Assembly: GCF_040802235.1 (NCBI RefSeq)
Contig: NC_133158.1
Coordinates: 158,670,401 to 158,734,400, forward strand
Length of the DNA stretch: 64,000 nucleotides
DNA from: Manis javanica
Lineage: Eukaryota; Chordata; Mammalia; Pholidota; Manidae
Reading direction: 5' to 3'
Shown: in pieces, positions 31,874 through 64,000 of the stretch
Layout of the letters: each line of letters starts with the position of its first letter
Numbering within the stretch: the stretch's first letter is position 1
Notes under the pieces: generated by a model
The model's input: only the letters and a program-made list of their open reading frames with translations
Told to the model about the DNA's origin: nothing
Database searches by the model: none
Made by a program: the position numbers and the translations under genes

Positions 31874-31884
31874 TTTTTTTTTTT

Positions 31885-32204
31885 GTAAGGGCATCTCTCC
31901 TATTTATTGATCAAATGGTTGTAAACAACAATAAAATTCTGTATAGGGGAGTCAATGCTCAATGTATAATCATTAATCCACCCCAAGCCTAATTTTCATC
32001 AGTCTCCAAACTTCTGAAGCATAACGAACAAGTTCTTACATGGAGAACAAATTCTTACATAGTGAATGAGTTACATGGTGAATAGTACAAGGGCAGTCAT
32101 CACAGAAAGTTTCGGTTTTGATCATGCATTATGAACTATAAACAGTCTGTTCAAATACGAATATTTGTTTGATTTTTATACTTGATTTATATGTAGATAC
32201 CACA
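31885..32204 (-). mobile_element. ERV LTR (U3-R) ending element E
   Basis: On the minus strand it starts TGTGGTATCTACATATAAATC straight after a polypurine tract (32205-32215) and ends at the poly(A). The signal AATAAA (complement at 31903-31908) is 18 nt before the poly(A) start, as expected for an LTR whose R region ends at the cleavage site. U5 is absent, as in the 3' end of a viral transcript. Confidence 0.88.
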
Positions 32205-32794
32205 TTTCTCTCTTTATTATTATTATTTTTAATAAAATGCTGAAGTGGTAGGTAGATACAAGATAAAGGTAGAAAACATAGTTTAGCGTTGTAAGAGAGC
32301 AAATGTAGATGATCAGGTGTGTGCCTGTAGACTATGTGTTAATCCAAGCTAGACAAGGGCAATAAAACATCCACAGATGCAGCAGATTTCTCTCAGAATG
32401 GAGGAGGGGGGTTCTAAGCCTCACCTCTGTTGATCCCCACTTTCTCACCTGATAGCCCCCCTGCGACTGTGCCTGTCTTAGGTTGTTCCTCCCTTGAGGA
32501 ATCTTACCCGTCTCTGGCTAACCAGTCATCTTCCGGGACCATACAGGGAAATGTAAAGTTGGTAAGTGAGAGAGAAGCCTTATTGTTTGAAAAGGTTAGT
32601 GTTTCACTTCTTTGCATATTTATGCCCTGTGGCTTCTATGCACAGCATTTGTCTTGAGGTATCTTTACCACTTGGAAGAAATGTAATACACGGTAAATTC
32701 AATATGAGGCATGAATTCTATTTAGGGGTTGTAATTAGGAAGGAAGAAGAAAAGCTATAGAAGTAGCAGGCGGAAGAAAACATGGGAAGATTGA

Positions 32795-33238
32795 TTATTT
32801 CTTTGACATATCTTCTTGTAGAGTAACTTCAGCATGTATAGGTTTTAAACTACTAATTAAATTGCGCACACATGTTAACATAATAGGAATACAGTTACAT
32901 AACCAAAGCATACCTATAATTACCAGCCATCTCCAGTGAAACCATGAAAACCAGTTAGGCACCTTAGGCATTTGTGAAAACTTATCTATGATATGGTGGA
33001 TATTGTCCAACTGAACTTGAACAGTCTGAGAGAAATCAGACAAATTAAAACAGCCCATTCCTGGGGACTGTTCACATCCCACATGTTCTTTTAACAGTAA
33101 ATAGTCTGTAGTTGTAAGATTTTGGAGCGCTACAATTGGCACTTTTCCTAATTCTTGGTTGAGTTCCAACAGTATAGATCCAGTCAAATTTGTTGTTTTA
33201 CTGTATGCACATGCCAGCTTAGATATCTCCTTCTTCAT
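32795..33238 (-). pseudogene. Retroviral env transmembrane (TM) fragment, open frame
   Basis: A 147-codon open frame covering the C-terminal part of a retroviral Env TM subunit. It has a leucine-rich heptad segment (about residues 20-50), a disulfide-loop-like Cys-x7-Cys pair with CFNLSD after it (about 54-68), a second amphipathic stretch, a Trp-rich membrane-proximal region (WFSWFHWRW, about 96-104), a hydrophobic anchor (about 105-124) and a short cytoplasmic tail. No surface subunit, furin site or complete fusion peptide is present, so it is not an entry-competent envelope. It is carried as part of the 3' tail of L1 element E. Confidence 0.8.
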
Positions 33239-33239
33239 T

Positions 33240-33540
33240 CCCTTGGCAAGTCCAGCAACCTGTGGGATGAGTGCATCTACACCTGTAGCAGCGTGTGGAT
33301 CTTTGTTGGGGTTTTTTAATGATCATCTTCTGGCATGAGTCTTCCAGAGTGTGCTGATGTTGGAAGTTCTTTTTCATATTGTATCTTAGTTCGTTTATGG
33401 GGTAGCCAAATTAGGCTTTAATCCTCTGTATAAGAACAAACAAACCCTTTGCCTACACTTTTATATGCCCTTTATACCATTGTGTAGAACTAATTGGAGG
33501 TCACCACAAAGGAACTGCTTTTTTCTTTTTTTTGTTATCA
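33240..33540 (-). other. ERV-derived tail upstream of env-TM
   Basis: Matches 49241-49490 in F and 62560-62805 in G. Probably retroviral leader, or pol-env junction or SU-deleted sequence; I cannot identify the exact region. An A-rich tract at its L1 side (33520-33536, as T on this strand) marks the fusion point with the L1 3'UTR. Confidence 0.6.
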
Positions 33541-33862
33541 TTAATCTACACTTACATGATCAATATTATGTTTACTAGGCTCTCTCCTATACCAGGGCCC
33601 CTTATAAACCCCTTTACAGTCACTGTCCATCAGCATAGCAAAGTGTTGTAGAGTCACTACTTGTCTTCTCTGTGTTGCACAGCCCTCCCCTTTCTCCCTC
33701 CCACCCATGCATGCTAATCTTAATACCCCCCTTCTTCTTCCCCCCACTTATCCCTCCCTACCCACCCATCCTCCACAGTCCCTTTCCCTTTGGTACCTGT
33801 TAGACCAATCTTGAGTTCTGTGATTCGGCTGCTGTTTTGTTCCCTCAGTTTTTCCTTTGTTC
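33540..33862 (-). other. L1 3'UTR of element E
   Basis: Purine/G-rich 3'UTR (C-rich on the plus strand, 33680-33790) with runs of G that could form quadruplexes. It is homologous to 14.5-kb L1 positions 15046-15370, but here it continues into ERV sequence instead of ending. Confidence 0.85.
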
Positions 33863-36800
33863 TTATACTCCACAGATGAGTGAAATCATTTGGTATTTCT
33901 CTTTCTCTGCTTGGCTTATTTCACTGAGCATAATACCCTCCAGCTCCATCCATGTTGCTGAAAATGGTAGGATTTGCCCTATTCTTATGGTTGAGTAGTA
34001 TTCCATTGTGTATATGTACCACATCTTCTTTATTCATTCATCTACTGATGGATATTTAGGTTGCTTCCAATTCTTGGCTATTCTAAATAGTGCTGCAATA
34101 AACATAGGGGTGCATCTGTCTTTCTCAGACTTGATTGCTGTGTTCTTAGGGTAAACTCCTAGGAGTGGAATTCCTGGGTCAAATGGTAAGTCTGTTTTGA
34201 GCATTTTGATGTACCTCCATACTGCTTTCCACAATGGTTGAACTAATTTACATTCCCACCAGCAGTGTAGGAGGGTGCCCCTTTCTCCACAGCCTCGCCA
34301 ACATTTGTTGTTGTTTGTCTTTTGGATGGCAGCCATCCTTACTGGTGTGAAGTGATACCTCATTGTAGTTTTTATTTGCATTTCTCTGATAATTAGCAAT
34401 GTGGAGCATCTTTTCATGTGTCTGTTGGCCGTCTGTATTTCTTTTTTAGAGAACTGTCTGTTCAGTTCCTCTGCCCATTTTTTAATCGCGTTATTTGTTT
34501 TTTGTTTGTTGAAGCACATGAGCTCTTTATATATCCTGGATGTCAAGCCTTTATCGGATCTGTCATTTTCAAATATATTCTCCCATACTGTAGGGTTCCT
34601 TTTTGTTCTATTGATGGTGTCTTTTGCTGTGCAGAAGCTTTTCAGCTTAATACAGTCCCACTTGTTCATTTTTGCTGTTGTTTTCCTTGCCCATGGAGAT
34701 ATGTTCAAGAAGAGGTCACTCATGTTTATGTCTAAGAGGTTTTTTCCTATGTTTTTTTCCAAGAGTTTAATGGTTTCATGACTTACATTCAGGTCTTTGA
34801 TCCATTTTGAGTTTACCTTTGTATATGGGGTTAGACAATGGTCCAGTTTCATTCTCCTACATGTAGCTGTCCACTTTTGCCAGCACCATCTGTTGAAGAG
34901 ACTGTCATTTTGCCATTGTATGTCCATGGCTCCTTTATCAAATATTAATTGACCATATATGTCAGGGTTAATGTCTGGATTCTCCAGTTTGTTCCATTGG
35001 TCTGTGGCTCTGTTCTTGTGCCAGTACCAAATTGTCTTGATTACTTTGGCTTTATAGTAGAGCTTGAAGTTGGGGAGTGAGATCCCCCTACTTTATTATT
35101 CTTTCTCAGGATTGCTTTGGCTATTCGGGGTCTTTGGTGTTTCCATATGAATTTTTGAATTATTTGTTCCAGTTCATTGAAGAATGTTGCTTGTAGTTTG
35201 ATAGGGATTGCATCAAATCTGTATATTGCTTTGGGCATGATGGCCATTTTGACGGTATTAATTCTTCCTAGCAACGAGCATGGGATGAGTTTCCATCTGT
35301 TAGTGTCCCCTTTAATTTCTCTTAAGAGTGACTTGTAGTTTTCAGAGTATAAGTCTTTCACTTCTTTGGTTAGGTTTATTCCTAGGTATTTTATTTTTTT
35401 TGATGTAATTGTGAATGGAGTTGTTTTCCTGATTTCTCTTTCTGTTGGTTCATTGTTAGTGTACAGGAAAGCCACAGATTTCTATGTGTTGATTTTGTAT
35501 CCTGCAACTTTACTGTATTCTGATATCAGTTCTAGTAGTTTTGGGGGAAGTCTTTAGGGATTTTATGTATAGTATCATGTCATCTGCAAATAGTGACAGT
35601 TTAACTTCTTCTTTACCAATCTGGAGTCCTTGTATTTCTTTGTTTTGTCTTATTGCCATGGCTAGACCTCCAGTACTATGTTAAATAACAGAGGGGAAAG
35701 TGGGCATCCCTGTCTAGTTCCCAATCTCTGAGGAAAAACTTTCAGCTTCTCGCTGTTCTATATAATATTAGCTGTGGGTTTATCATAGATGGCCTTTATT
35801 ATGTTGAGGTACTTGCCCTCTATTCCCATTTTGCTGAGAGTTTTTATCATGAATGGATGTTGAATTTGGTCAAATGCTTTTTCAGCATCTATGGAGATAA
35901 TCATGTGGTTTTTGTCTTTCTTTTTGTTGATGTGGTGGATGATGTTGATGGACTTTCAAATGTTGAACCATGCTTGCATCCCTGGGATGAATCCCACTTG
36001 GTCATGGTGTACAATTCTTTTGATGTATTTTAGAATTCAGTTTGCTAATATTTTGTTGAGTATTTTTGCATCTACGTTCATCAGGGATATTGGTCTGTCG
36101 TTTTCTTTTTTAGTGGGGTCTTTGCCTGATTTTGGTATTATGGTGTTGTTAGCTTTATAGAATGAGTTTGGGAGTATCCCCTCCTCTTCTATTTTTGGAA
36201 AACTTTAAGGAGAATGGGTATTATGTCTTCCTTGTATGTCTGATAAAATTCTGAGGTGAATCCATCTGGCCCGGGGGTTTTGCTGTTTGGTAGTTTTTTG
36301 ATTACTGATGCAATTTCGTTGCTGGTAATTGGTCTGTTTAGATTTTCTGTTTCTTTCTGGGTCAGTCTTGGAAGGTTGTATTTTTCTAGGAAGTTGTCCA
36401 TTTCTCCTAGGTTTCCAAGTTTGTTAGCATATAGGTTTTCATACTACTCACTAATAATTCTTTTTATTTCTGTGGGGTCCGTTGTGATTTTTCCTTTCTC
36501 GTTTCTGATACCGTTGATTTGTGTTGACTCTCTTTTCCTCTTATTTTTTTTATTTTCTCGAAGAACCAGCTCTTTGATTCATTGATTTTTGCTATTGTTT
36601 TATTCTTCTCACTTTTATTTATTTTCTCTCTCATCTTTAGTACGTCCCTCCTTCTGCTGACCTTAGGCCTCATTTGTTCGTCTTTTTCCAATTTCGATAA
36701 TTCTGACATTAGACCATTTATTTGGGATTGTTCTTCCTTCTTTAAATATGCCTGGATTGCTATATACTTTCCTCTTACGACTGCTTTTGCTGTGTCCCAC

Positions 36801-37851: not shown

Positions 37852-38742
37852 CTAGAGCAGTCCCTGTAGGATGCCCTGTAGAGGTGGTTTGTGGGAGGCA
37901 AATTCCCTCAGCTTTTGCTTGTCTGGGAATTGTTTAATCCCGCCATCATATTTAAATGATAGTCGTGCTGGATACAGTATCCTTGGTTCAAGGCCCTTCT
38001 GTTTCATTGCATTAAATATATCTTGCCATTCTCTTCTGGCATGTAGGGTTTCTGTCGAGAAGTCTGATGTTAGCCTGATGGGTTTTCCTTTATAGGTGAC
38101 CTTTTTCTCTCTAGCTGCCTTTAAGACTCTTTCCTTGTCCTTGATCCTTGCCATTTTAATTACTATGTGTCTTGGTGTTGTCCTCCTTGGATCCTTTCTG
38201 TTGGGGGTTCTGTGTAATTCCATGGTCTGTTCGATTATTTCCTCCCCCATTTTGGGGAAGTTTTCAGCAATTATTTCTTCAAAGAGACTTTCTATCCCTT
38301 TTCCTCTTTCTTCTTCTTCTGGTACCCCTATAATACGAATATTATTCCTTTTGGATTGGTGACATAGTTCTCTCAGTGTTGTTTCATTCCTGGAGATCCT
38401 TTTATCTCTCTCTATGTCAGCTTCTATACCTTCCTCTTCTCTGGTTTCTATTCCTTCAATGGCCTCTTGCACCTTATCCATTCTGCTTATAAATCCTTCC
38501 AGGGATTGGTTCACTTCTGTGATCTCCTTCATGACATCTGTGATCTCCCTCCGGACTTCATCCCATTGCTCTTGCATTTTTCTCTGCATCTCATCCCATT
38601 GCTCTTGCATTTTTCTCTGCATCTCTGTCAGCATGTTCATGATTTTTATTTTGAATTCTTTTTCAGGAGGACTGGTTAGGTCTGTCTCCTTCTCAGGTGT
38701 TGTCTCTGTGATCTTTGTTTGCCTGTAGTTTTGCCTTTTCAT
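37852..38742 (-). CDS. L1 ORF1 protein, intact (element E)
   Basis: A 296-codon open frame for the L1 ORF1 RNA-binding chaperone, which coats L1 RNA in the cytoplasmic ribonucleoprotein. Start chosen at MKRQNYRQTK (38742) because G has the same ATG; the frame stays open 32 codons further upstream without homology support as coding. Residues about 30-130 are a long coiled coil for trimerisation, containing a perfect 11-residue duplication (DEMQRKMQEQW-type unit, residues 39-60). Residues about 133-210 form the RRM (NNIRIIGVPEEEE; TTPRHIVIKMARIKDKERVL). Residues about 211-285 form the C-terminal domain (YKGKPIRLTSDFSTETL; RILYPARLSFKYDGG). There is no internal stop, while ORF2 of the same element is broken. 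Whether it is expressed is unknown. Confidence 0.93.
   Translation of the reverse strand: MKRQNYRQTKITETTPEKETDLTSPPEKEFKIKIMNMLTEMQRKMQEQWDEMQRKMQEQWDEVRREITDVMKEITEVNQSLEGFISRMDKVQEAIEGIETREEEGIEADIERDKRISRNETTLRELCHQSKRNNIRIIGVPEEEERGKGIESLFEEIIAENFPKMGEEIIEQTMELHRTPNRKDPRRTTPRHIVIKMARIKDKERVLKAAREKKVTYKGKPIRLTSDFSTETLHARREWQDIFNAMKQKGLEPRILYPARLSFKYDGGIKQFPDKQKLREFASHKPPLQGILQGLL
38559..38624 (-). repeat. 33-bp tandem duplication in ORF1 coiled coil
   Basis: Two identical 33-bp units (38559-38591, 38592-38624) encode two 11-residue coiled-coil repeats, preserving frame. G carries the same duplication near 57196-57261 with a few substitutions. Confidence 0.95.
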
Positions 38743-39571
38743 GGTGGTAGAGATAGTTTGCAGAGCTGGTACGAGTGACCTCTGGAAGAGCTTCCCTTCT
38801 TGTTGGTTTGTGGCCTTCTTCTCCTGGGAGAATAGCAACCTCTAGTGTCTTATGCTTCGCAGCTGTGCACAGACAGGGCTTCTGCTACCTGCCCGTTTGC
38901 TATTGAGTTTATCTCTGCTGTTGCTGTGGGTGTGGCCTGGCTAAGGCTGCTCCTCCAAAATGGTGGAGCTCCATTGGAGGGGAGTGGCCGGGAGGCTACT
39001 TATCTCTGTATGGGGCCTCTGTGCTCCCTGTTGTCCAGGGGGTTAGAGTGCCCAGAGATCCCCAGATTCCCTGCCTCTGGTCTAAGTGTCCTTTCCTGCC
39101 CCTTTAAGACTTCCAAAAAGCACTCTCCAAACCAAAACAACAACAGCAACAATGAAAGAGTAAAAAGAAAAAAAAAAAAGTAAAGAAAAAAACGTGCAAT
39201 TTTCTTTGTCCTCAGGTGCCAGTCCCAGGCACCCGCTCACCGGTCCTGCTGCCCTGCCTCCCTAGCACTGGGGTCCCCGTCCCTTTAAGGCTTCCTAAAA
39301 GCACTCACCAAAAAAAAAACCGCTCTGTTTTCTTTCCACCCGCCGGGAGCCGAGGGGAGGGGCGCTGGGGTCCCGCCGGGCCGAGGCTTGTATCTTACCC
39401 CCTTCGCAAGGCGCTGGATTCTTGCATGTGTGGATGTGGTCTGGATGTTGTCCTGTGTCCTCTGGTCTCTATTTTAGGAAAAGTTTTCTTTGTTATATTT
39501 TCATAGATCTATGTGTTTTTGGGAGGAGATTTCCACTGCTCTACTCACAACGCTATCTTGGCTCCACCTCC
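38743..39571 (-). promoter_or_regulatory. Element E 5'UTR, monomer type (two units)
   Basis: GC-rich relative to its surroundings. Two monomer-like units are recognised by the ...agcactc(t/a)cc... box near 39118-39130 and 39297-39310, followed on the minus strand by a region shared with G (56700-57076). The element start contains ggagccaagatagc. L1 5'UTRs act as internal promoters; this type is unrelated by eye to the 5'UTR immediately to the right (39.8-40.8 kb). Confidence 0.8.
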
Positions 39572-39574
39572 TCT

Positions 39575-45358: not shown

Positions 45359-45375
45359 AAAATATGTTGCCATCT
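45359..45375. repeat. Target-site duplication, left copy (element F)
   Basis: AAAATATGTTGCCATCT, repeated exactly at 50886-50902. It follows a tt dinucleotide, consistent with an L1 endonuclease TT/AAAA-type nick. Confidence 0.97.
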
Positions 45376-48300
45376 CAGAAAATAAGTAAAGACACACAGG
45401 CACTGAACAACACACTAGAACAGATGGACCTAATAGACATCTATAGAACTCTACATCCAAAAGCAACAGGATATACATTCTTCTCAAGTGCACATGGAAC
45501 ATTCTCCAGAATAGACCACATACTAGCTTGCAAAAAGAGCCTCAGTAAATTCCAAAATATTGAAATTCTACCAACCAATTTTTCAGACCACAAAGGTATG
45601 AAAGTAGAAATAAATTCTACAAGGAAAACAAAAAGGCTCACAAACACATCGAGGCTTAACAACATGCTACTAAATAATCAATGGATCAATGAACAAATCA
45701 AAATAGAGATCAAGGAATATATAGAAACAAATGACAACACCAACACTAAGCCCCAACTTCTGTGGGATGCAGCGAAAGCAGTCTTAAGAGGAAAGTATAT
45801 AGCAATCCAGGCACACTTGAAGAAGGAGGAACAATCCCAAATGAATAGTCTAACATCACAATTATCGAAACTGGAAAAAGAAGAACAAATGAGGCCTAAA
45901 GTCAGCAGAAGGAGGGACATAATAAAGATCAGAGAAGAAATAAAAAAAATTGAGAAGAATAAAACAATAGCAAAAATCAACGAAACCAAGAGCTGGTTCT
46001 TTGAGAAAATAAACAAAATAGATAAGCCTTTAGCCCAACTTATTAAGAGAAAAAGAGAGTCAACACAAATCAACATAATCAGAAATGAGAATGGAAAAAT
46101 CATGACAGACTCCACAGAAATACAAAGAATTATTAAAGACTACTATGAAAACCTATATGCTAACAAGCTGGAAAACCTAGAAGAAATGGACAACTTCCTA
46201 GAAAAATACAACCTCCCAAGACTGACCAAGGAAGAAACACAAAAGTTAAACAAACCAATTACAAGCAAAGAAATCGAAACAGTAATCAAAAAACTACCCA
46301 AGAACAAAACCCCGGGGCCGGACGGATTTACCTCGGAATTTTATCAGGCACACAGAGAAGACATAATACCCATTCTCATTAAAGTGTTCCACAAAATAGA
46401 AGAAGAGGGAATACTCCCAAACTCATTCTATGAGGCCAACATCACCCTAATACCAAAACCAGGCAAAGATCCCACCAAAAAAGAAAATTACAGACCAATA
46501 TCCCTGATGAATGTAGATGCAAAAATACTCAATAAAATATTAGCAAACAGAATTCAACAGTATATCAAAAGGATCATACACCGTGACCAAGTGGGGTTCA
46601 TCCCAGGGATGCAAGGATGGTACAACATTCGAAAATCCATCAACATCATCCACCACATCAACAAAAAGAAAGACAAAAACCACATGATCATCTCCATAGA
46701 TGCTGAAAAAGCATTTGACAAAATTCAACATCCATTCATGATAAAAACTCTCAGCAAAATGGGAATAGAGGGCAAGTACCTCAACATAATAAAGGCCATA
46801 TATGATAAACCCACAGCCAGCATTATACTGAACAGTGAGAAGCTGAAAGCATTTCCACTGAGATCAGGAACCAGACAGGGATGCCCACTCTCCCCACTGT
46901 TATTTAAAATAGTACTGGAGGTCCTAGCCACGGCAATCAGACAAAACAAAGAAATACAAGGAATCCAGATTGGTAAAGAAGAAGTTAAACTGTCACTATT
47001 TGCAGATGATATGATACTGTACATAAAAAACCCTAAAGACTCCACTCCAAAACTACTAGAACTGATATCGGAATACAGCAAAGTTGCAGGATACAAAATT
47101 AACACACAGAAATCTGGAGCTTTCCTATACACTAACAACGAATCAATAGAAAGAGAAATCAGGAAAATAATTCCGTTCACCATTGCATCAAAAAGAATAA
47201 AATACCTAGGAATAAACCTAACCAAAGAAGTGAAAGACTTATACTCTGAAAACTACAAGTCACTCTTAAGAGAAATTAAAGGGGACACTAACAAATGGAA
47301 ACTCATCCCATGCTCATGGCTAGGAAGAATTAATATTGTCAAAATGGCCATCCTGCCCAAAGCAATATACAGATTTGATGCAATCCCTCTCAAATTACCA
47401 GCAACATTCTTCAATGAATTGGAACAAATAATTCAAAAATTCATATGGAAACACCAAAGACCCTGAATAGCCAAAGCAATCCTGAAAAAGAAGAATAAAG
47501 TAGGAGGGATCTCACTCCCCAACTTCAAGCTCTACTACAAAGCCATAGTAATCAAGACAATTTGGTACTGGCACAAGAACAGAGCCACAGACCAGTGGAA
47601 CAGATTAGAGACCCCAGAAATTAACCCAAACATATATGGTCAATTAATATCTGATAAAGGAGCCATGGACATACAATGGCAAAATGACAGTCTCTTCAAC
47701 AGATGGTGCTGGCAAAACTGGAGAGCTACATGTAGGAGAATGAAACTGGACCATTGTCTAACCCCATATACAAAGGTAAACTCAAAATGGATCAAAGACC
47801 TGAATGTAAGTCATGAAACCATTAAACTCTTGGAAAAAAACATAGGCAAAAACCTCTTAGACATAAACATGAGTGATCTCTTCTTGAACATATCTCCCCG
47901 GGCAAGGAAAACAACAGAAAAAATGAGCAAGTGGGACTACATTAAGCTGAAAAGCTTCTGTACAGCGAAAGACACCATCAATAGAACAAAAAGGAACCCT
48001 ACAGTATGGGAGAATATATTTGAAAATGACAGATCCGATAAAGGCTTGATGTCCAGAATATATAAAGAGCTCACACGCCTCACCAAACAAAAAACAAATA
48101 ACCCAATTAAAAAATGGGCAGAGGAACTGAACAGACAGTTCTCCAAAAAAGAAATACAGATGGCCAAGAGACACATGAAAAGATGCTCCACATCGCTAAT
48201 TATCAGAGAAATGCAAATTAAAACTACAATGAGGTATCACCTCACACCAGTAAGGATAGCTGCCATCCAAAAGACAAACAACAACAAATGTTGGCGAGGC

Positions 48301-48720
48301 TGTGGAGAAAGGGGAACCCTCCTACACTGCTGGTGGGAATGTAAATTAGTTCAACCATTGTGGAAAGCAGTATGGAGGTGCATCAAAATGCTCAAAACAG
48401 ACCTACCATTTGACCCAGGAATTCCACTCCTAGGAATTTACCCTAAGAACGCAGCAATCAAGTTTGAGAAAGACAGATGCACTCCTATGTTTATCGCAGC
48501 ACTATTTACAATAGCCAAGAATTGGAAGCAATCTAAATGTCCATCGGTAGATGAATGGATAAAGAAGATGTGGTACATATACACAATGGAATACTACTCA
48601 GCCATAAGAAGTGGAAAAATCCAACCATTTGCAGCAACATGGATGGAGCTGGAGAGTATTATGCACAGCGAAATAAGCCAAGAGGAGAAAGAGAAATACC
48701 AAATGATTTCACTCATCTGA
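45376..48720 (+). pseudogene. L1 ORF2, 5'-truncated, one nonsense codon
   Basis: About 1115 codons in a single frame from the truncation point to the stop at 48718-48720, broken only by TGA at 47464-47466 (CGA in the same place in G, a likely CpG transition). Seen in order: end of the endonuclease domain ([25 protein letters not shown]), a Z-like/linker region, RT with [14 protein letters not shown], the [15 protein letters not shown] block, LRQGCPLSP-type text ([14 protein letters not shown]) and catalytic FADD at 46999-47010, thumb, and the C-terminal knuckle C-x3-C-x7-H-x4-C at 48289-48342. About the first 160 residues, including early endonuclease residues, are absent. Minus-strand frames here are shadows. 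Confidence 0.95.
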
Positions 48721-49098
48721 GGAGTATAGGAACAAAGGAAAAACTGAAGGAACAAAACAGCAGTGGAATTACAGAACCCAAAAATGGACTAACAGGTACC
48801 AAAGGGAAAGGAACTGGGGAGGATGGGTGGGCAGGGAAGGATAAGGGGGGGGAACAAGAAGAGGGGTATTAAGATTAGCATGCATGGGGGGGAGGGAGAA
48901 AGGGGAGGGTGGGCTGCACAACACAGAGAGGACAAGTAGTGACTCTACAACATTTTGCTAAGCTGATGGACAGTAACCGTAATGTGGTTGTTAGGGGGGA
49001 CCTGATATAGGGGAGAGCATAGTAAACATACTATTCTTCATGTAAGTGTAGATTAAAATTTAAAAAAAAAAAAGAAAGAAAGAAAGAAAGAAAGAAAA
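48721..49098 (+). other. L1 3'UTR and A-rich tract of element F
   Basis: G-rich polypurine 3'UTR with several G3-G8 runs (48808-48910), potentially quadruplex-forming as known for L1 3'UTRs, then an A11/(GAAA)n tract at 49059-49098. In an ordinary L1 the element would end here. Confidence 0.85.
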
Positions 49099-49245
49099 GG
49101 GGGATTACTCCTTAACAGGATAAAACTATTGGTAAATCAAAGACGCATGCTTTAAATATCCTTAATGTTGATCACTTAAAGGGTGTCAGATGATCAGCTA
49201 TGGAGGTACTCTTTTCAGATAATATTCCTTTCTCTTAATTAAAAA
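49099..49245 (+). other. Extra about 150-bp module in tail of F
   Basis: Between two A-rich tracts (49059-49098 and about 49240-49252) lies gggggattactcctt... sequence also present in G (62410-62560). In element E the L1 3'UTR joins directly to the next block, so this module is absent there. Origin not recognised. Confidence 0.75.
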
Positions 49246-49495
49246 AAAAAAATGCAGTTACTGTGTGCTGACCTCCAATGAGTTCTGCACAGTGGTATAG
49301 AGGGCATGTCAAAGTGTGGGCAAAGGGTCTGTTTGTTTCTACGCAGAAGATCAAGGCCTAGCTTGGATACCCAGAAAATGAACTAAGATACGATATGAGG
49401 AGGAGCTTCCGGCATCAGCACTCTCTGGAGGACTTGTGCCAGGGGATGATCATCAAAAAGCCTCCACAGGGATCCGGACGATGCTGCGGTTGTGG
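49246..49495 (+). other. ERV-derived tail upstream of env-TM (F)
   Basis: Homologous to 33240-33500 (E, opposite strand) and 62560-62805 (G). The minus-strand frames at 49383-49658 are not genes. Confidence 0.6.
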
Positions 49496-49499
49496 CTGC

Positions 49500-49933
49500 A
49501 TCCAGCCCACCATCTCCTGGACTTGCCATAAGAAGGAGGAGGGAGATGTCTAGGCTGGCATGTGCATACAGTGAGACAACGAATTTGACCAGATCTGTAC
49601 TCTTGGAACTCAACCAGGAGTTGGGAGGGGTGCAAGTTGTAGCACTCCAAAATCTCATGACTATAGACTATCTATGGTTAAAAGAACATATGGGATGTGA
49701 ACAGATCCCAGAAATGGGCTGCTTTAATTTGTCTGATGGTTCAAGTACAGTTGGACAATATCCATCATATCATAGATAAATTTTCACAAATGCCTAGGGT
49801 GCCTAAATGGTTTTCTTGGCTTCACTGGAGATGGATGGTAATTATAGATTTGCTTTGTTTATGTCACCGTATTCCTATTATGTTAATATGTGTGTACAAA
49901 TTAGTTAGTAGTTTAAAACCTATACATACTTAA
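49500..49933 (+). pseudogene. Retroviral env-TM fragment, frameshifted (F)
   Basis: Same TM region as in E and G (heptad region, Cys-x7-Cys loop, Trp-rich membrane-proximal region, hydrophobic anchor, short tail), but F lacks 11 bases near 49737 relative to G. This splits it into frames 49492-49779 and 49697-49933. Incomplete and non-functional as an envelope. Confidence 0.82.
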
Positions 49934-50544
49934 GGTACTCTACAAGAAGATATGTCAAAGAAATAATCAATCCTCCCAAGTTTCCTTCATATGCTACATC
50001 TATAGCTTTTCTTCTTCCTTCCTAATTACAACCCTTAAATAGAATTTGTGCCTCATATCGAATTTACCGAGTATCATAATTCCTCCAGGTGGTAAAGATA
50101 CCTCGAGACAAGTGCTGGGCATAGAAGCCACAGGGCATAAATCTGCAAAGAAGTAAAAAGCTAACCTTTGCAAACAATATGTCTTCTCTCTCACTTACCA
50201 ACTTTACATTTCCCTGTATGGCCCCGGAAGATGACTGGTTAGCCAGAGACGGGTAAGATTCCTCAAGGGAGGAACAACCTAAGACAGGCACAGTCGCAGG
50301 GGGGCCATCAGGTGAGAATTTGGGGATCAACAGAGGTGAGGCTCAGAACCTCACCCCCCCTGCTTTGAGAGAAATCTTCTGCATCCGTGGATGTCTTGCT
50401 GCCCTTGTCTAGCCTGGATTAATACTTAGTCCATAGGCACACACCTGATCATCTACATTTGCCCTCTTACAGCTATGTTTTCTACCTTTATCTTGCATCT
50501 ACCTACCACTTCAGCATTTTATTAAAAATAAAAATAATAATAAT

Positions 50545-50555
50545 AATAGGAGAAA
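50545..50555 (+). promoter_or_regulatory. Polypurine tract before LTR (F)
   Basis: A purine stretch (aataggagaaa, following a (TAA)n run) sits immediately before TGTGGGATCA, the LTR start. The equivalent in G (63880-63890) is a cleaner aaagggagaaa. Retroviruses use such tracts to prime plus-strand DNA. Confidence 0.7.
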
Positions 50556-50878
50556 TGTGGGATCAACATATAAATCAAGTACAAAAGTCAAACAAATATT
50601 CATATTTGACCTGATTGTTTATAGGTCATATTGCATGATCAAATCCGAAAGTTTCTGTGATGAATGCCCTTGTACTGTTCACCATGTAAGAATTTATTCA
50701 CTATGTAAGAATTCGTTCACCATGTAAGAACTTGTTCGTTATGGTTCAGAAGATTGGAGACTGACCAGAATTAGGCTTGAGATGGATTAATGATTGTACA
50801 TTGAGCGTTGACCCCCCTATACTGAATTTTATTGTTGTTAACAACCATTTGATCAATAAATATGAGAGATGCCCTCTC
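50556..50878 (+). mobile_element. ERV LTR (U3-R) ending element F
   Basis: Begins TGTGGGATCAAC after the polypurine tract. AATAAA at 50855-50860 lies 18 nt before the poly(A). U5 is missing because transcription ended at the R/poly(A) site. Betaretrovirus-like by layout (PPT then TGTGG start, TM type); class is an inference. Confidence 0.88.
50855..50860 (+). terminator. LTR poly(A) signal AATAAA used by chimera F
   Basis: The only canonical hexamer at usable distance from the terminal poly(A) of the inserted copy. It belongs to the LTR and not to L1. Confidence 0.9.
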
Positions 50879-50885
50879 AAAAAAA

Positions 50886-50902
50886 AAAATATGTTGCCAT
50901 CT
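50886..50902. repeat. Target-site duplication, right copy (element F)
   Basis: Exact copy of 45359-45375; its leading A residues overlap the end of the poly(A). Confidence 0.97.
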
Positions 50903-51022
50903 AATTCCCACTAAATGTTTATAAAATATACATAACAATGTCCTCATCTATAGATTATAAATTAAGAAAGGATGATTCAAGACTTAACCTGCCAGTGATT
51001 ATCCACGTAGCTCCTTAAGAAG

Positions 51023-54300: not shown

Positions 54301-55329
54301 TAGATAAACAAATTATTTGATGACACTTTATTCTGTGTATATTTATTTCTTCCCATTTCTTTCCCTTTTCTTCTACTGAAACAGAGATCTAATAGGGTTT
54401 TGCCAACAAGTCACACATATTTTAAAATGCAGATTCAAATCTAATATAAGTATAACTGAGTTCACAGACATATTCTGCCTATTCAAATTTTAGCTTTGGA
54501 GGAAAAAAAATCTTAGCAATATAAAGGAGAAAAATAAGAACTTTCTTTTTGCATAGAGAAAACATTCAGATAGTGACAATCTGGCACTTGAAATTTCAGA
54601 AAGCTACATAATGAAAAAATACAAATATCTTTGCAGACATAATCTGCTGCTAAAGTATGTCCCTTACCTTTGACTTTTAAGGGCTTACATAGTAAAAATG
54701 CACAACAGCCACATTATTGGTGTATCATTTTCACATAAATGTAAAAATCCACTATTAAAATATTTAAAAATCACAGTTCCTATAGAGGGAACACTAATTT
54801 GTTACAAATAATTTAAATTATGGCAATTATTTTCTCATGTAGAATATGCCATCATTCATTAAAAATAGAAGCTATACTGGTTCATTTGTCTCTAAGCAGA
54901 TGATAAATAATAGGTAGATAGATGATGTGTGTGTGTGTGTTTTGTAATGCACTGCATAGTACTTAGAATAAGAATTGATAGATACTAATGAACAAGAATA
55001 TACAAAGAACATACTTTTCATGAAAATCATAGGGTGTTTCCAGAGTATATAACATTACCTCATATTTGAAATATAAGCTCAGGAAGATTTGAGTAACCCT
55101 TTCTACTAACCTGTTCATATTGTTGAGAGGAACCATATTGATTACATTTCCAAAACTCAAAAATTCTGTTATCTCTTAAGTCTCAAATAACATGCAGGCT
55201 CCTTGACTTACCAAAAAAAGATTTCATTTCCCTTCAGTGCTCCTCAATTTGACCACCCAGGTGGCAGTGCTGAAGCATCAAAAAATAATTACCAAAAAAT
55301 AATTACCATAAAAACAGCAAAGGCAGACC
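51386..55329. other. Anonymous AT-rich DNA
   Basis: No gene or named repeat is recognised. The GC-richer stretch at 53250-53470 is unassigned; its frame at 53184-53441 (85 codons) shows no domain. A short (GT)n lies at 54927-54940. Confidence 0.55.
55279..55306. repeat. 14-bp tandem duplication before element G
   Basis: caaaaaataattac occurs twice with no spacer, about 25 bp upstream of the L1 start. It may or may not relate to the insertion. Confidence 0.95.
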
Positions 55330-57076
55330 AAGGCAGAGCCAAGATGGCTGCGTGAGTAGAGCAGTGGAAATCTCCTCCCAAAAACACATAGAGCTATGAA
55401 AATATAACAAACAAAACTCTTCCTAAAATAGAGACCAGAGGACACAAGACAACATCCAGACCACATCCACACATGCAAGAACCCAGCACCTTGCGAAGGG
55501 GGTAAGATACAAGCCCCAGCCCGGCGGGACCCAAGCACCCCTCCCCCCGGCTCCCGGCGGGTGGAAAGAAACTGGAGCGGTTTTTTTTTTTTTTTTGGCG
55601 AGTGCTTTTTGGAAGCCTTAAAGGGACAGGGACCCCGTTGCTAGGGAGGCAGGGCGGCGGGACCGGTGAGTGGTGCCTGGAACCGGCGCCTGAGGACAAA
55701 GATCGTGCATTTTTCCCTACGGGACCGGTGGGCGGGTGCATGAGACCGGCGCCTGAGGACAGAGGAAATAGCGTGTTTTTCCCCTTTTTTTTCCCTCTTT
55801 TTGGTGAGTGCTTTTTGGAAGCCTTACAGGGACAGGGACCCCAGTGCTAGGGAGGCAGGGCGGCAGGACCAGTGACAGGGTGCCTGGGACCGGCACCTGA
55901 GGACAAAGATTACCGCGCGCTTTTCCCCTTTTTTTTCTCTTTTTGGCGAGTGCTTTTTGGAAGACTTAAAGGGACAGGGACCCCGGTGCTAGGGAGGCAG
56001 GGCAGTGGGACTGGTGAGCAGGTGCCTGGGACCGGCGCCTGAGGACAAAGACTATCCCATGTTTTTCCCTGCGGGACCGGAGGGCGGGTGCCTGAGACCG
56101 GCACCTGAGGATGGAGGAAATGGCACATTTTTCCCCTTTTTTTTCCCTCTTTTTGGTGAGTGCTTTTTGGAAGCCTTAAAGGGACAGGGACCCTGGTGCT
56201 AGGGAGGCAGAGCAGCAGGACCGGTGAGTGGGTGCATGGGACTGGCACCTGAGGACAAAGAATATTGCGCGTTTTTCCCTGTGGGACCGGTGGGCGTGTG
56301 CCTGAGACTGGTGCCTGAGGACAGAGGAAATCGCGTGTTTTTCCCCTTTTTTTTTCCCTCTTTTTGGCGAGTGCTTTTTGGAAGCCTTAAAGGGACAGGG
56401 ACCCCAGTGCTAGGGAGGCAGAGCAGCAAGATCGGTGAGCAGGTGCCTAGGACCGGCGCCTGAACACAAAGAATATCGCGTGTTTTTCCCTGCAGGACCA
56501 GTGGGCGGGTGCTTTTTGGAAGCCTTGAAGGGACAGGGACCCCGGTCCTAGGGAGGCAGGGCAGCAGGACCAGTGAGCGGATGCTTGGGACCGGCGCCAG
56601 AGGAAAAAAAAAAAAATCACGAGTTTTTTCCTTTTTTTTTTTTTTTTTTTTTCTGTTTCTACTCTCATTGTTGCTGTTGTTGTTTTGGTTTGGAGAGTGC
56701 TTTTTGGAAGTCTTAAAGGGGCAGGAGAGGACACTTAGACCAGAGGCAGGGAATCTGAGGATCTCTGGGCTCTAACACCCTGGGCAACAGGGAGCACAGA
56801 GGCCCCTTACAGAGAAAAATAGCCTCTCAGCCACTCCCCCTCCAACGGGGCTCCACCACTTTGGAGGAGCAGCCCCAGCCAAGCCACACCCAGAGCAACA
56901 GTGGAGATAAACTCCATAGCAACCGGGCAGGTAGCAGAAGCCCTGTCTGCGCACAGCTGACAAGCATAAGCCACTAGAGGTCGCTATTCTCCCAGGAGAG
57001 GAAGGCCACAAACCAACAAGAAGGAAAGCTCTTCCAGCTGTCACTCGTACTAGCTCTGCAAACTATCTCTATCACC
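55330..57076 (+). promoter_or_regulatory. Element G 5'UTR with tandem monomers
   Basis: A CpG- and GC-rich 1.75-kb region in AT-rich DNA. A box gtgctttttggaagcctt recurs at about 55601, 55807, 55949, 56159, 56370, 56508 and 56696, giving spacings near 206, 142, 210, 211, 138 and 188 bp. Long units add a second gaccggcgcctgagga-type half. Such tandem 5'UTR monomers are known as promoter units in mouse L1. E has only two. The open frames on both strands here come from the repeats and are not genes. Confidence 0.88.
55601..56713 (+). repeat. L1 5'UTR monomer array, two unit lengths
   Basis: Seven repeats of the gtgctttttggaag box separated by either about 140 bp (short) or about 206-211 bp (long), plus a final 188-bp spacing. 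The long form contains two copies of the accgg...gcgcctgaggacaaag/agagg module. Units differ at a few sites and by T-run length. Confidence 0.92.
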
Positions 57077-57940
57077 ATGAAAAGGCAAAACTACAGGCAG
57101 ACAAAGATCACAGAGACAACACGTGATAAGGAGACAGACCTAACCAGTCCTCCTGAAAAACAATTCAAAATAAAAATCATGAACATGCTGACAGAGATGC
57201 AGAGAAAAATCCAAGAGCAATGGGATGAGATGCAGAGAAAAATGCAAGAATAATGGGATGAAGTCCGGAGGGAGATCACAGATGTCAGGAAGGAGATCAC
57301 AGAAGTGAACCAATCCCTGGAAGGATTTATAAGCAGAATGGATAAGATGCAAGAGGCCATTGAAGGAATAGAAGCCAGAGAGCAGGAATGTATAGAAGCT
57401 GACATGGAGAGAGATAAAAGGATCTCCAGGAATGAAACAACACTAAGAGAACTATGTGACCAAACCAAAAGGAATAATATTCGTATTATAGGGGTACCAG
57501 AAGAAGAAGAAAGAGGAAACGGGATAGAAAGTCTTTTAGAAGAAATAATTGCTGAAAACTTCCCAAAAATGGGGGAGGAAATAATCGAACAGACCATGGA
57601 ATTACACAGAACCCCCAACAGAAAGGATCCAAGGAGGACAACACCAAGACACATAGTAATTAAAATGGCAAGGATCAAGGACAAGGAAAGAGTTTTAAAG
57701 GCAGCTAGAGAGAAAAAGGTCACCTATAAAGGAAAACCCATCAGGCTAACATCAGACTTCTCAACAGAAACCCTGCAGGCCAGAAGAGAATGGCATGATA
57801 TACTTAATGCAATGAAACAGAAGGGCCTTGAACCAAGGATACTGTATCCAGCACAATAATCATTTAAATATGATGGCGGGATTAAACAATTCCCAGACAA
57901 GCAAAAGCTGAGGTATTTTGCTTCCCACAAACCACCTCTA
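57077..57940 (+). pseudogene. Element G ORF1, two nonsense codons
   Basis: Same start ATG (57077) and frame as the intact ORF1 of E. A TAA replaces CAA at codon 59 (57251-57253) in the duplicated coiled-coil repeat, and a TAA occurs at codon 261 (57857-57859) in the C-terminal domain. Between them 57254-57856 remains open and reads coiled coil, RRM and most of the C-terminal domain. The frame then continues past the second stop with the remaining C-terminal text. Confidence 0.93.
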
Positions 57941-58218
57941 CAGGGGATCCACCTCTACAGGGGAACCTAGAAGAAGAACAAATGAGGCCTTCAGAAAACT
58001 GCCTGGAGCACTGTTGCTCCTAAAAGCCCCGTTGCACAGAACAAAACACTCCTAAAAAGAGCAACATATGAAGAATGGAGGAGGAGGAATAAGAAAGGAG
58101 AGAAGAAAAGAATCTCCAGACAGTGTATATAACAGCTCAATAAGCGAGCTAAGTTAGGCAGTAAGATACTAAAGAAGCTAACCTTGAACCTTTGGTAACC
58201 ACGAATCTAAAGCCTGAA

Positions 58219-61200
58219 ATGGCAATAAGTACATATCTCTCAATAGTCACCCTAAATGTAAATGAACTTACTGCACCAATTAAAAGACACAGAGTAATAG
58301 AAGGAAAAAAAAGCAAGACCCATCTATATGCGGCTTACAAGAAACTCACCTTAAACCCAAAGACAAGCATAGACTAAAAGCCAAGGGATGGAAAAACATA
58401 TTTCAGGCAAACAACAGTGAGAAGAAAGCAGGGGTTGCAGTACTAATATCAGACAAAATAGACTTCAAAACAAAGAAAGTAACAAGAAATAAAGAAGGAT
58501 ACTACATAATGATAAAGGGCTCAGTCCAACAAGAGGATATAACCATTCTAAATATATATACACCCAATACAGGAGCACCAGCATATGTGAAGCAAAAACA
58601 AACAGAACTAAAGAGGGAAATAGACTGCAATGCATTCATTGTAGGAGACTTCAACACACCACTCACCCCAAAGGATAGATCCACCGGGCAGAAAATAAGT
58701 AAGGACACACAGGCACTGAACAACACACTAGAACAGATGGACCTAATAGACATCTATAGAACTCTACATCCAAAAGCAACAGGATATACATTCTTCTCAA
58801 GTGCACATGGAACATTCTCCAGAATAGACCACATACTAGCTCACAAAAAGAGCCTCAGTAAATTCCAAAATATTGAAATTCTACCAACCAATTTTTCAGA
58901 CCAAAAAGGTATAAAAGTAGAAATAAATTCTACAAAGAAAACAAAAAGGCTCACAAACACATGGAGGCTTAACAACATGCTACTAAATAATCAATGGATC
59001 AATGAACAAATCAAAATAGAGATCAAGGAATATACAGAAACAAATGACAACAACAACACAAAGCCTCAACTTCTGTGGGCCGCAGTGAAAGCAGTCTTAA
59101 GAGGAAAGTATATAGCAATCCAGGCACACTTGAAGAAGGAAGCACAATCCCAAATGAAAGTCTAACATCACAATTATCGAAACTGGAAAAAGAAGAACAA
59201 ATGAGGCCTAAAGTCAGTAGAAGGAGGGACATAATAAAGATCAGAGAAGAAATAAACAAAATTGAGAAGAATAAAACAATAGCAAAAATCAACAAAACCA
59301 AGAGCTGGTTCTTTGAGAGAATAAACAAAATAGATAAGCCTCTAGCCCAACTTATTAAGAGAAAAAGAGAATCAACACAAATCAACATAATCAGAAATGA
59401 GAATGGAAAAATCACGACAGACTCCACAGAAATACAAAGAATTATTAAAGACTACTATGAAAACCTATATGCCAACAAGCTAGAAAACCTAGAAGAAATG
59501 GACAACTTCCTAGAAAAATACAACCTCCCAAGAACTGACCAAGGAAGAAACACAAAAGTTAAACAAACCATTTACGAGCAAAGAAATTGAAACAGTAATC
59601 AAAAAACTACCCAAGAACAAAACCCCGGGGCCGGACGGATTTACCTCGGGATTTTATCAGACACACAGAGAAGACATAATACCCATTCTCCTTAAAGTGT
59701 TCCACAAAATAGATGAAGAGGGAATACTCCCAAACTCATTCTATGAAGTCAACATCACCCTAATACCAAAACCAGGCAAAGACCCCACCAAAAAAGAAAA
59801 TTATAGAGCAATATCCCTGATGAATGTAGATGCAAAAATGCTCAATAAAATATTAGCAAACAGAATTCAACAGTATATCAAAAGGATCACATACCATGAC
59901 CAAGTGGGATTCATCCCAGGGATGCAAGGATGGTACAACATTCGAAAATCTATCAACATCATCTGCCACGTCAACAAAAAGAAAGAGAAAAAGCACATGA
60001 TCATCTCCATAGATGCTGAGAAAGCATTTGACAAAATTCAACATCCATTCATGATAAAAACTCTCAGCAAAATGGGAATAGAGGGAAAGTACCTCAACAT
60101 AATAAAGGCCATATATGATAAACCCACAGCCAGCATTATACTGAACAGTGAGAAGGTGAAAGCATTTCCTCTGAGATCGGGAACCAGACAGGGATGCCCG
60201 CTCTCCCCACTGTTATTTACCATAGTACTGGAGGTCCTAGCCACAGCAATCAGACAAAACAAAGAAATACAAGGAAACCAGACTGGTAAAGAAGAAGTTA
60301 AACTGTCACTATTTGCAGATGATATGATACTGTACATAAAAAACCCTAAAGACTCCATTCCAAAACTACAAGAACTGATATCAGAATACAGCAAAGTTGC
60401 AGGATACAAAATTAACACACAGAAATCTGGAGCTTTCCTATACACTAACAATGAATCAATAGAAAGAGAAATCAGGAAAACAATTCCATTCACCATTGCA
60501 TCAAAAAGAATAAAATACCTAGGAATAAACCTAACCAAAGAAGTGAAAGACTTATACTCTGAAAACTACAAGTCACTCTTAAGAGAAATTAAAGGGGACA
60601 CTAACAAATGGAAACTCATCCCATGCTCATGGCTAGGAAGAATTAATATTGTCAAAATGGCCATCCTGCCCAAAGCAATATACAGATTTGATGCAATCCC
60701 TCTCAAATTACCAGCAACATTCTTCAATGAATTGGAACAAATAATTCAAAAATTCATATTGGAAACACCAAAGACCCCGAATAGCCAAAGCAATCATGAG
60801 AAAAAAAGAATAAAGTAGGGGGGATCTCACTCCCCAACTTCAAGCTCTACTACAAAGCCATAGTAATCAAGACAATTTGGTACTGGCCCAAGAACAGAGC
60901 CACAGACCAGTGGAACAGATTAGAGACCCCAGAAATTAACCCAAACATATATGGTCAATTAATATTTGATAAAGGAGCCATGGACATACAATGGCAAAAT
61001 GACAGTCTCTTCAACAGATGGTGCTGGCAATACTGGACAGCTACATGTAGGAGAATGAAACTGGACCATTGTATAACCCCATATACAAAGGTAAACTCAA
61101 AATGGATCAAAGACCTGAATGTAAGTTATGAAACCATTAAACTCTTGGAAAAAAACATAGGCAAAAACCTCTTAGACATAGACATGAGTGACCTCTTCTT

Positions 61201-62035
61201 GAACATATCTCCCCGGGCAAGGAAAACAACAGCAAAAATGAGCAAGTGGGACTACATTAAGCTGAAAAGCTTCTGTACAGCGAAAGACACCATCAATAGA
61301 ACAAAAAGGAACCCTACAGTATGGGAGAATATATTTGAAAATGACAGATCTGATAAAGGCTTGATGTCCAGAATATATAAAGAGCTCACACGCCTCAACA
61401 AACAAAAAACAAATAACCCAATTAAAAAATGGGCAGAGGAACTGAACAGACAGTTCTCTAAAAAAGAAATACAGATGGCCAACAGACACATGAAAAGATG
61501 CTCCACATCGCTAATTATCAGAGAAATGCAAATTAAAACTACAATGAGGTATCACCTCACACCAGTAAGGATAGCTGCCATCCAAAAGACAAACAACAAC
61601 AAATGTTGGCGAGGCTGTGGAGAAAGGGGAACCCTCCTACACTGCTGGTGGGAATGTAAATTGGTTCAACCATTGTGGAAAGCAGTTTGGAGGTTCATCA
61701 AAATGCTCAAAACAGACCTACCATTTGACCCAGGAATTCCACTCCTAGGAATTTACCCTAAGAACACAGCAATCAAGTTTGAGAAAGTCAGATGCACCCC
61801 TATGTTTATCGCAGCACTATTTACAATAGCCAAGAATTGGAAGCAACCTAAATGTCCATCGGTAGATGAATGGATAAAGAAGATGTGGTACATATACACA
61901 ATGGAATACTACTCAGCCATAAGAAGTGGAAAAATCCAACCATTTGCAGCAACATGGATGGAGCTGGAGAGTATTATGCTCAGTGAAATAAGCCAAGCGG
62001 AGAAAGAGAAATACCAAATGATTTCACTCATCTGA
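58219..62035 (+). pseudogene. Element G ORF2, several frameshifts
   Basis: Full-length ORF2 region. Endonuclease start MAISTYLSIVTLNVNELTAPIK at 58219. A frame change lies near 58300-58320. The rest of the endonuclease is open at 58509-59165. One base is lost near 59154 relative to F, and one gained near 59533 (cccaagaactg versus cccaagactg). RT is open at 59697-60818 with FADD at 60312-60323. One base is gained near 60760 (catattgg versus catatgg). The C-terminal part with the zinc knuckle is open at 60980-62035. Hence catalytic motifs survive in separate frames. Confidence 0.95.
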
Positions 62036-62411
62036 GGAGTATAGGAACAAAGGAAAAACTGAAGGAACAAAACAGCAGTGGAATTACAGAACCCAAAAAT
62101 GGACTAACAGGTACCAAAGGGAAAGGAACTGGGGAGGATGGGTGGGCAGGGAGGGATAAGGGGGGGAAGAAGAAGGGGGGTATTAAGATTAGCATGCATG
62201 GGGGGAGGGAGAAAGGGGAGGGTGGGATGCACAACACAGAGAGGACAAGTAGGGATTCTACAACATTTTGCTAAGCTGATGGACAGTAACCGTAATGTGG
62301 TTGTTAGGGGGGACCTGATATAGGGGAGAGCATAGTAAACATAGTACTCTTCATGTAAGTGTAGATAAAAGAGTAAAAAAAAAAAAAAAAGAAAGAAAGA
62401 AAGAAAGAAAG
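62036..62411 (+). other. L1 3'UTR and A-rich tract of element G
   Basis: G-rich 3'UTR (62120-62225) then A-rich/(GAAA)n at 62376-62411, collinear with F. Confidence 0.85.
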
Positions 62412-62805
62412 GGGGATTACTCCTTGATAGGAGAAAACTATTGGTAAATCAAAGATCAACGTATGCTTTAAATATCCTTAATGTTGATCACTTAAAGGGT
62501 GTCAGATGATCAGCTATGGAGGTACTCTTTTCTGATAATATTCCTTTCTCTTAATAAAAAAAAAAAAGCAGTCCCTGTTTGCTGACCTCCAATGAGTTCT
62601 GCACAGTGGTATAGAGGGCATGTCAAAGTGTGGGCAAAGGGTCTGTTTGTTTCTATGCAGAAGATCAAGGCCTAGCTTGGATACCCAGAAAATGAACTAA
62701 GATACGATATGAGGAGGAGCTTCCGGCATCAGCACTCTCTGGAGGACTTGTGCCGGGGGATGATCATCAAAAAGCCTCCACAGGGAACCGGGCGATGCTG
62801 CAGTC
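62412..62805 (+). other. Extra module plus ERV tail upstream of env-TM (G)
   Basis: 62412-62560 corresponds to the F-only/G-only module between A-rich tracts. 62570-62805 corresponds to the block shared with E and F. The minus-strand frames 62697-62988 are shadows. Confidence 0.65.
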
Positions 62806-63258
62806 GTGGCTGCGTCCACCCCACCGTTTCCTGGACTTGCCATTGGAATGAGGAGGGAGATGTCTAGGCTGGCATGTGCATACAGTGAGACAACGAATTT
62901 GACCACATCTGTACTGTTGGAACTCAACCAGGAGTTGGGATGGGTGCAAGGTGTAGCACTCCAAAATCTTATGACTATAGACTATCAACGGTTAAAAGGA
63001 CATATGGGAGGTGAACAGATCCCAGAAATGGGCTGCTTTAATTTGTCTGATTTTTCTCAGACTGTTCAAGTACAGTTGGACAATATCCATCATATCATAG
63101 ACAAATTTTCACAAATGCCTAGGGTGCCTAAATTGTTTTCTTGGCTTCACAGGAGATGGATCGTAATTATAGATTTGCTTTGTTTATGTCACCGTATTCC
63201 TACTATGTTAATATGTGTGTACAAATTAGTTAGTAGTTTAAAACCTATACATACTTAA
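62806..63258 (+). pseudogene. Retroviral env-TM fragment, open frame (G)
   Basis: A 150-codon open frame starting just upstream of the region homologous to E's 147-codon frame. It has a leucine-rich heptad region, a Cys-x7-Cys loop followed by FNLSD, amphipathic stretch, Trp/Arg-rich membrane-proximal segment, hydrophobic anchor (about residues 120-140) and a short tail ending SSLKPIHT. It lacks the surface subunit and cleavage site, so it is not a functional envelope. It is part of the transduced 3' tail. Confidence 0.8.
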
Positions 63259-63879
63259 GGTACTGTGCAAGAAGATATGTCAAAGAAATAATCAATCCTC
63301 CCATGTTTTCTTCCATATGCTACCTCTATAGCTTTTCTTCTTCCTTTCTAATTACAACCCTTAAATAGAATTCATGCCTCATGTCGAATTTACCGAGTAT
63401 CATAATTCCTCCAGGTGGTAAAGATACCTCGAGACAAGTGCTGGGCATAGAAGCCACAGGGCATAAATCTGCAAAGAAGTAAACAGCTAACCTTTTCAAA
63501 CAATGTGGCTTCTCTCTCACTTACCAACTTTACATTTCCCTGTATGGCCCTGGAAGATGACTGGTTAGCCAGAGACGGGTAAGATTCCTCAAGGGAAGAA
63601 CAACCTAAGACAGGCACAGTCGCAGGGGGGCCATCAGGTGAGAAACTGGGGATCAACAGAGGTGAGGCTTAGAACCCCCCTCCTCCATTCTGAAAGAAAT
63701 CTGCTGCATCTGTGGATGTTTTATTGCCCTTGTCTAGCTTCGATTAACACATAGTCTACAGGCACACACCTGATCATCTACAATTGCTCTCCTACAACAC
63801 TAAACTATGTTTTCTACCTTTATCTTGCATCTACCTACCACTTCAGCATTTTATTAAAAATAAAAATAATAATAATAAT

Positions 63880-63890
63880 AAAGGGAGAAA
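63880..63890 (+). promoter_or_regulatory. Polypurine tract before LTR (G)
   Basis: aaagggagaaa directly before TGTGGGATCAAC, a retroviral plus-strand primer layout. Confidence 0.8.
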
Positions 63891-64000
63891 TGTGGGATCA
63901 ACATATAAATCAAGTATAAAAATCAAATGTATACTCATATTTGACCTGATTGTTTATAGTTCATAATGCGTGATCAAAACCAAAAGTTTCTGTGATGAAT
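63891..64000 (+). mobile_element. ERV LTR of element G, cut by window end
   Basis: First 110 bp of the same LTR as 50556-50878; the poly(A) signal and tail lie beyond the window. Confidence 0.85.

Follow-up and report, generated by a model that had tools for sequence, protein, structure and literature searches.

A pangolin LINE-1 lineage that probably carries a captured retroviral env-LTR segment as its 3' end

A 64,000-nucleotide stretch of the Manis javanica genome (GCF_040802235.1, NC_133158.1:158,670,401-158,734,400; the window, on which all positions are based) contains three copies, termed A, B and C, of a long interspersed element 1 (L1) joined to the env end and long terminal repeat (LTR) of an endogenous retrovirus (ERV). 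The most probable reading, at about 0.87, is an L1 lineage that ends 3' in an env-LTR segment captured from a retrovirus and has spread as a unit to many genome sites. The inserted unit starts with the L1, includes the genomic poly(A) of the L1 and the remnant of env, and stops at the LTR poly(A) site; it bears the marks of target-primed reverse transcription: a single target duplication, 5' truncation and poly(A). An earlier note on this DNA had proposed that the three L1 copies share a non-L1 tail, and the shared tail is indeed 92.4% identical between B and C, 87.1% between A and C and 85.8% between A and B. The older L1s inspected in the window (15200-15560, 19300-19720 and 28850-29300) end without the tail, as that note had stated.

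The unit in copies B and C runs from the L1 through an A-tract decayed to (GAAA)n, ~140 bp of env, an A-run, the env transmembrane (TM) region, post-env sequence and a polypurine tract to the LTR and poly(A). The tail of env, polypurine tract and LTR is ~1.8 kb long in both. Copy B lies on the forward strand and comprises a 5'-truncated L1 (ORF2 with RVT_1 and the 3' untranslated region (UTR); 45376..49062), the decayed L1 poly(A) (49063..49098), the captured env end with post-env sequence and polypurine tract (49099..50555) and the LTR up to its own poly(A) site (50556..50878, AATAAA at 50855). It is flanked by two copies of AAAATATGTTGCCATCT (17 bp; 45359..45375 and 50886..50902), the first overlapping a TTAAAA endonuclease-type site, and none of 1000 shuffles reached 14 bp. 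Copy C, also on the forward strand, has a full-length L1 (5'UTR with tandem repeats, ORF1, a broken ORF2 and 3'UTR; 55330..62375), the poly(A)/(GAAA)n junction (62376..62411), the captured env end through the polypurine tract (62412..63890, with the TM frame at 62764-63258) and an LTR that begins at 63891 and leaves the window at 64000. Loci fetched from the host genome (2.56 Gb, 63 contigs) carry L numbers, and L009 is copy C with the sequence beyond the window. The LTR reaches the equivalent of ~64220 in L009 and ends there in poly(A). Copy C completed in this way is flanked by copies of AAAAACAGCAAAGGCAG (17 bp), the 5' one at 55310..55326 and the 3' one outside the window. Because one 17-bp target duplication surrounds each whole, the L1 and tail of B and of C were inserted as a unit.

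Copy A lies on the reverse strand. Its full-length L1 (33535..39571, ORF1 frame 37852-38841) is linked by an A-tract (33519..33534) straight to env, without the ~150-bp segment that opens the tail of B and C. The captured env end with post-env sequence and polypurine tract (32205..33518, TM frame 32795-33322) and the LTR (31885..32204, AATAAA at 31908) follow, and after the LTR poly(A) come ~210 bp more, an A-tract and old-L1-like 3' end with AATAAA at 31687 and poly(A) (31660..31884) that is part of the A-type unit. C extends to the ~64220 equivalent, and A reaches ~31660 rather than 31874. Env-TM, polypurine tract and LTR were correctly named as tail parts; the "A-rich junction" is the L1 poly(A), and the "ERV block" reads as the first ~150 bp of the captured env, absent from A. 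The LTR begins TGTG, is preceded by a purine tract and has AATAAA-poly(A) afterwards. Protein domain models recognise Transposase_22 and Tnp_22_dsRBD (ORF1) in A and RVT_1 in B. The open env-TM frames match the fusion TM of avian sarcoma and leukosis virus (ASLV; PDB 4jpr) with E = 2.5e-8 in A and 3e-6 in C, and Pfam returned no family for the env-TM frame of either copy.

Genome searches show that the joined unit is widespread. The B-type query (window:62400-62700, 301 bases) starts within (GAAA)n and contains no L1 3'UTR. It returned 1035 genome candidates; the best 40, one of them the window itself, were scored and all matched at 96-100% identity. Each second rank of the 39 scored loci outside the window was fetched. 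All 19 have L1 immediately upstream and the LTR downstream, despite the lack of L1 3'UTR in the query. The 3' end is the same LTR poly(A) site followed by A's in 18 of the 19; L014 stops early within the LTR. An LTR running on into U5, a feature of proviruses and solo LTRs, was not encountered in these 18, which stop in poly(A) at one site. The genome search proposed earlier thus gave the anticipated picture of varied L1 5' ends and a constant tail end. L014 and a locus from a second search, L033, both stop early in the LTR just past CCATG and continue into A's, possibly an alternative poly(A) site.

Copies A, B and C and the 19 fetched loci form a 22-copy set. The L1 5' end is reached in 14 and truncated in 8, among the latter L027, which reached the 5' end in another comparison. 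Target duplications of at least 9 bp surround the unit in 15 of 22 copies versus 7 of 462 mismatched flank pairs, which served as control, and duplications of at least 12 bp in 11 of 22 versus 0 of 462. Together with the joined loci, these counts bear out the claim that the fusion is amplified as a unit. The set shows the hallmarks of LINE-1 (ORF1 with Transposase_22, an ORF2 reverse transcriptase, target duplications, poly(A) and frequent 5' truncation) and those of L1 3' transduction (additional sequence past the L1 poly(A), its own poly(A) end and a single enclosing target duplication). None of the 22 tailed copies has intact ORF1 and ORF2 together as judged by ORF length, 8 of them being scored 5'-truncated; the longest ORF2 has 1018 amino acids, and one copy combines an ORF1 of 296 with an ORF2 of 930.

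Three further samples were taken. A 261-base A-junction query gave 2360 candidates that overlap those of the B-type query; all of the best 40, which were scored, cover at least 259 of the 261 bases at 92-100%, and 6 of the 39 matches outside the window were fetched (L029-L034). This query contains L1, so L1 joining in its matches is by construction. The LTR end followed by non-A letters occurs at 57 places, from which 19 were hand-chosen by their end letters; 8 are joined to L1 and 11 are not. The first bases of the block occur at 127 places at least, and among 7 hand-chosen loci 4 are joined to L1 (L056, L058, L060 and L061) and 3 are not (L055, L057 and L059). The earlier note had named as counter-evidence a tail almost never joined to L1; this did not come true, though L1-free tail copies are common.

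Two subfamilies are distinguished by the tail. A-type copies have no block, and the same old-L1-like end lies past the LTR A-tract in A, L030, L031 and L032, with its first 15 bases in L029. It is also present in L039, L040, L041, L043 and L053. L033 stops early in the LTR, and L034 continues from the LTR and A-tract into a polypurine tract and a second LTR in tandem. Diverged copies L037, L042, L046 and L051 have both the block and the LTR end; L050 has no block, yet ends at the LTR. The block was considered as a foreign insert in B and C and this was rejected, since L038 reads it in frame with the following env and old copies carry it. We infer that the block is ancestral, that its loss in the A-type took place between two A-runs and that the old-L1 end is a later acquisition.

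Mean distances within the A-type and B-type, respectively, are 0.078 and 0.042 for the L1 3'UTR, 0.047 and 0.028 for a patch of A/G differences described below, 0.034 and 0.027 for the rest of TM, 0.039 and 0.029 for segment post1, 0.141 and 0.078 for the LTR and 0.034 and 0.050 for segment post2. The B-type looks younger because its within-type distance is smaller in five of the six segments, post2 being the exception, and the A-type is apparently the older. The two types differ by 0.136 in the L1 3'UTR. The L1 3'UTR tree and the tail tree agree in their main split, which separates A plus old copies from B with support 1.000 (L038 has no L1 letters). L1 and tail therefore descend together at the level of the main split. 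In the joined copy L048 the L1 3'UTR is a mixture of the A and B types.

The patch lies at 62580-62980 in copy C numbering. Comparison of 7 A-type with 12 B-type copies gave 40 fixed differences with A in the A-type and G in the B-type versus 2 in reverse. Read as A>G, a preceding G is avoided (2/28 versus 38/108, p = 0.0026) and a following G favoured (p = 0.008); read as G>A, GG is favoured (p = 0.006), yet GC and GT are hit no less often than GA. Diverged copies are mostly in the A-state (31-38 of 40 or 41 sites in L037, L038, L042, L046, L050 and L051), as are L055, L056, L058, L059 and L061 (33-37 of 41 sites). L060 is cut before the patch, and L048, L049 and L057 are in the G-state. The patch looks like deaminase editing of a source element, either G>A in the A-type or A>G in the B-type (APOBEC-like or ADAR-like).

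The L1-free tail copies raise the alternative of recurrent template jumping. RNA of a stand-alone env-LTR retroposon with a fixed 5' end would be copied first and the reverse transcriptase would then repeatedly jump from that 5' end to the poly(A) of an L1 RNA, producing many independent fusions. Three copies without L1 start at the first bases of the tail and have poly(A) and exact target duplications of 12, 17 and 10 bp (L055, L057 and L059). L038 starts at the same point with an 18-bp duplication containing 2 mismatches that was judged by eye, the exact scan showing none. L049 has this start as well. Such fusion-point copies occur in the A-state and B-state classes alike. Their start at the fusion point means that the tail is also mobile on its own and may have been joined to L1 repeatedly. 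They point to an independently mobile tail RNA with a defined 5' end; a truncation hot spot at the A-tract could be the alternative. These copies weigh against the favoured reading of one captured 3' end, and several other observations fall on the same side. No target duplication of at least 9 bp was found in 7 of the 22 copies, including A, which has none even with its corrected 3' end. The flanks of A are parts of an old L1, and a deletion upon its insertion is possible. Only 3 of the 11 unjoined LTR-end copies have a duplication of at least 9 bp versus 10 of 342 control pairs, in a scan that took the wrong 3' end for A-type copies. No source provirus, and no source locus with an L1 ahead of a still unjoined segment, was recognised among the 26 hand-chosen tail loci (19 of 57 plus 7 of at least 127), read without a proviral reference for the sequence upstream of the fusion point. 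At 63276-63890 the A/C distance of 0.055 is smaller than the B/C distance of 0.064, contrary to a simple history and a hint of exchange between copies. What speaks against template jumping is the agreement of the L1 3'UTR and tail trees on the main split together with features shared by many copies, namely loss of the block and the 3' extension in the A-type and (GAAA)n in the B-type, and we regard such jumping as unlikely. The 5' starts of the other 9 of the 11 unjoined LTR-end copies are scattered along the tail, as expected from 5' truncation. L044, L045, L048 and L049, from the sample picked for non-A ends, lack an A-tract behind the LTR; they may represent the ends of proviruses or of solo LTRs, or else altered copies. 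L049 was tried as a provirus and rejected, its 2.5 kb of upstream sequence having no similarity to the tail references, the sole comparison made, which included no retroviral protein model.

L1 would also come to lie beside env and LTR if it had inserted several times, each time into a different provirus of one ERV family, or if one locus had been segmentally duplicated. A precedent exists in the Chinese pangolin, for which PMC12584738 describes ERV-Gamma.b9-Mpen with a near-complete LINE-1 between ENV and the 3' LTR. It resembles the present unit in having LINE-1 adjoining ENV and LTR and differs in being reported there as a single interrupted provirus; it may be a lead to the founder of the family. 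Target duplications enclose L1 plus LTR and not L1 alone, which refutes this pair of explanations as the main one; in addition the junction is constant, the LTR ends in poly(A) and the flanks of A, B and C differ. Segmental duplication, the other objection raised in the earlier note, is excluded because the only matches among the five 1-kb flanks within the window are one of 21 and one of 23 bases. The pair is accordingly given almost no weight.

The favoured history of a captured 3' end would start from a single fusion. Transcription of an L1 directly upstream of the env-LTR piece would have continued up to the LTR poly(A) signal, in the manner of 3' transduction, or an end-to-end template jump would have joined the two. 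The LTR would afterwards have served as the 3' processing signal of the element. The lineage would then have split, the A-type losing ~150 bp between two A-runs and gaining the old-L1-like 3' end by a further transduction, and the B-type retaining the block and the LTR end. Copy C has no AATAAA at 62034-62400, in the L1 3'UTR, and the LTRs of B and A have one ~24 bases ahead of their A-tracts. This anatomy suggests that the LTR provides the processing signal. The env-TM frame was considered as a conserved third L1 protein. Shared variable sites fall 6/17/14 by codon position with no third-position excess, and in a raw reading, which counts indels as breaks, the C frame stays open to its end in 9 of 22 copies. 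Neither the codon-position counts nor frame survival supports such a protein, and there is no sign of selection on the frame.

Human L1 3' transduction likewise carries along sequence past the L1 poly(A), which offspring copies inherit. The pangolin unit differs in that the env-LTR gives the poly(A) site and marks large subfamilies, the A-type adding a second 3' end. The nearest analogue is SVA of hominoids, a composite element mobilised by L1. Its SINE-R is the 3' end of env plus the 3' LTR of HERV-K10, according to PMC12593883. Both use an env-LTR module as a polyadenylated 3' end. Unlike in SVA, the pangolin tail belongs to an L1 with coding capacity, present or past, for its own machinery; the hexamer, Alu-like and VNTR (variable number of tandem repeats) parts were not encountered and L1 stands upstream in their place, and the env resembles an ASLV-type TM. 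The ARTenvV retrocopy is an ERV-derived RNA moved by L1 machinery, as described in PMC9604959, and shares the target duplication and poly(A). It differs from the pangolin ERV piece, which is joined to L1 and inherited, and the stand-alone copies L038, L055, L057 and L059 resemble it. Among the open-access papers listed, covered by titles and the starts of abstracts and with Dfam and Repbase outside the search, none presented an L1 family that ends in an ERV env-LTR.

An extended form of the proposal is tentative. A free-standing SINE-R-like retroposon, consisting of the env end and LTR with a fixed 5' end, might have arisen outside primates, moving alone in trans and also becoming a lasting L1 3' end, with subfamilies marked by a deaminase-edited source element (the 40 versus 2 A/G differences) that multiplied. 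If so, one module would be both a parasite and a part of L1. The captured 3' end itself would mean that an L1 that has a coding region of its own can come to end in a retroviral env-LTR without losing the capacity to found large subfamilies. In primate SVA a module of this kind belongs to a composite that has no L1 genes. If env-LTR was recruited on two separate occasions as the 3' end of a retroposon, one could test whether the poly(A) signals of LTRs favour retrotransposition of the L1 type. LTR sequence would also be spread by L1 rather than by virus, with a possible regulatory effect.

Other searches of the window gave no match in Rfam and no occurrence of a 16-base can-SINE start; viral contigs gave 4 pattern matches, among which no relative was confirmed. 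Tandem repeats with units of ~142, 210 and 352 bp occupy 55581-56512 in the L1 5'UTR of copy C. The 5'UTR match of L012 and L021 skips from reference position ~172 to ~1667. Outside the L1s, a 237-bp direct repeat links 115-350 with 1433-1669 at 95% identity.

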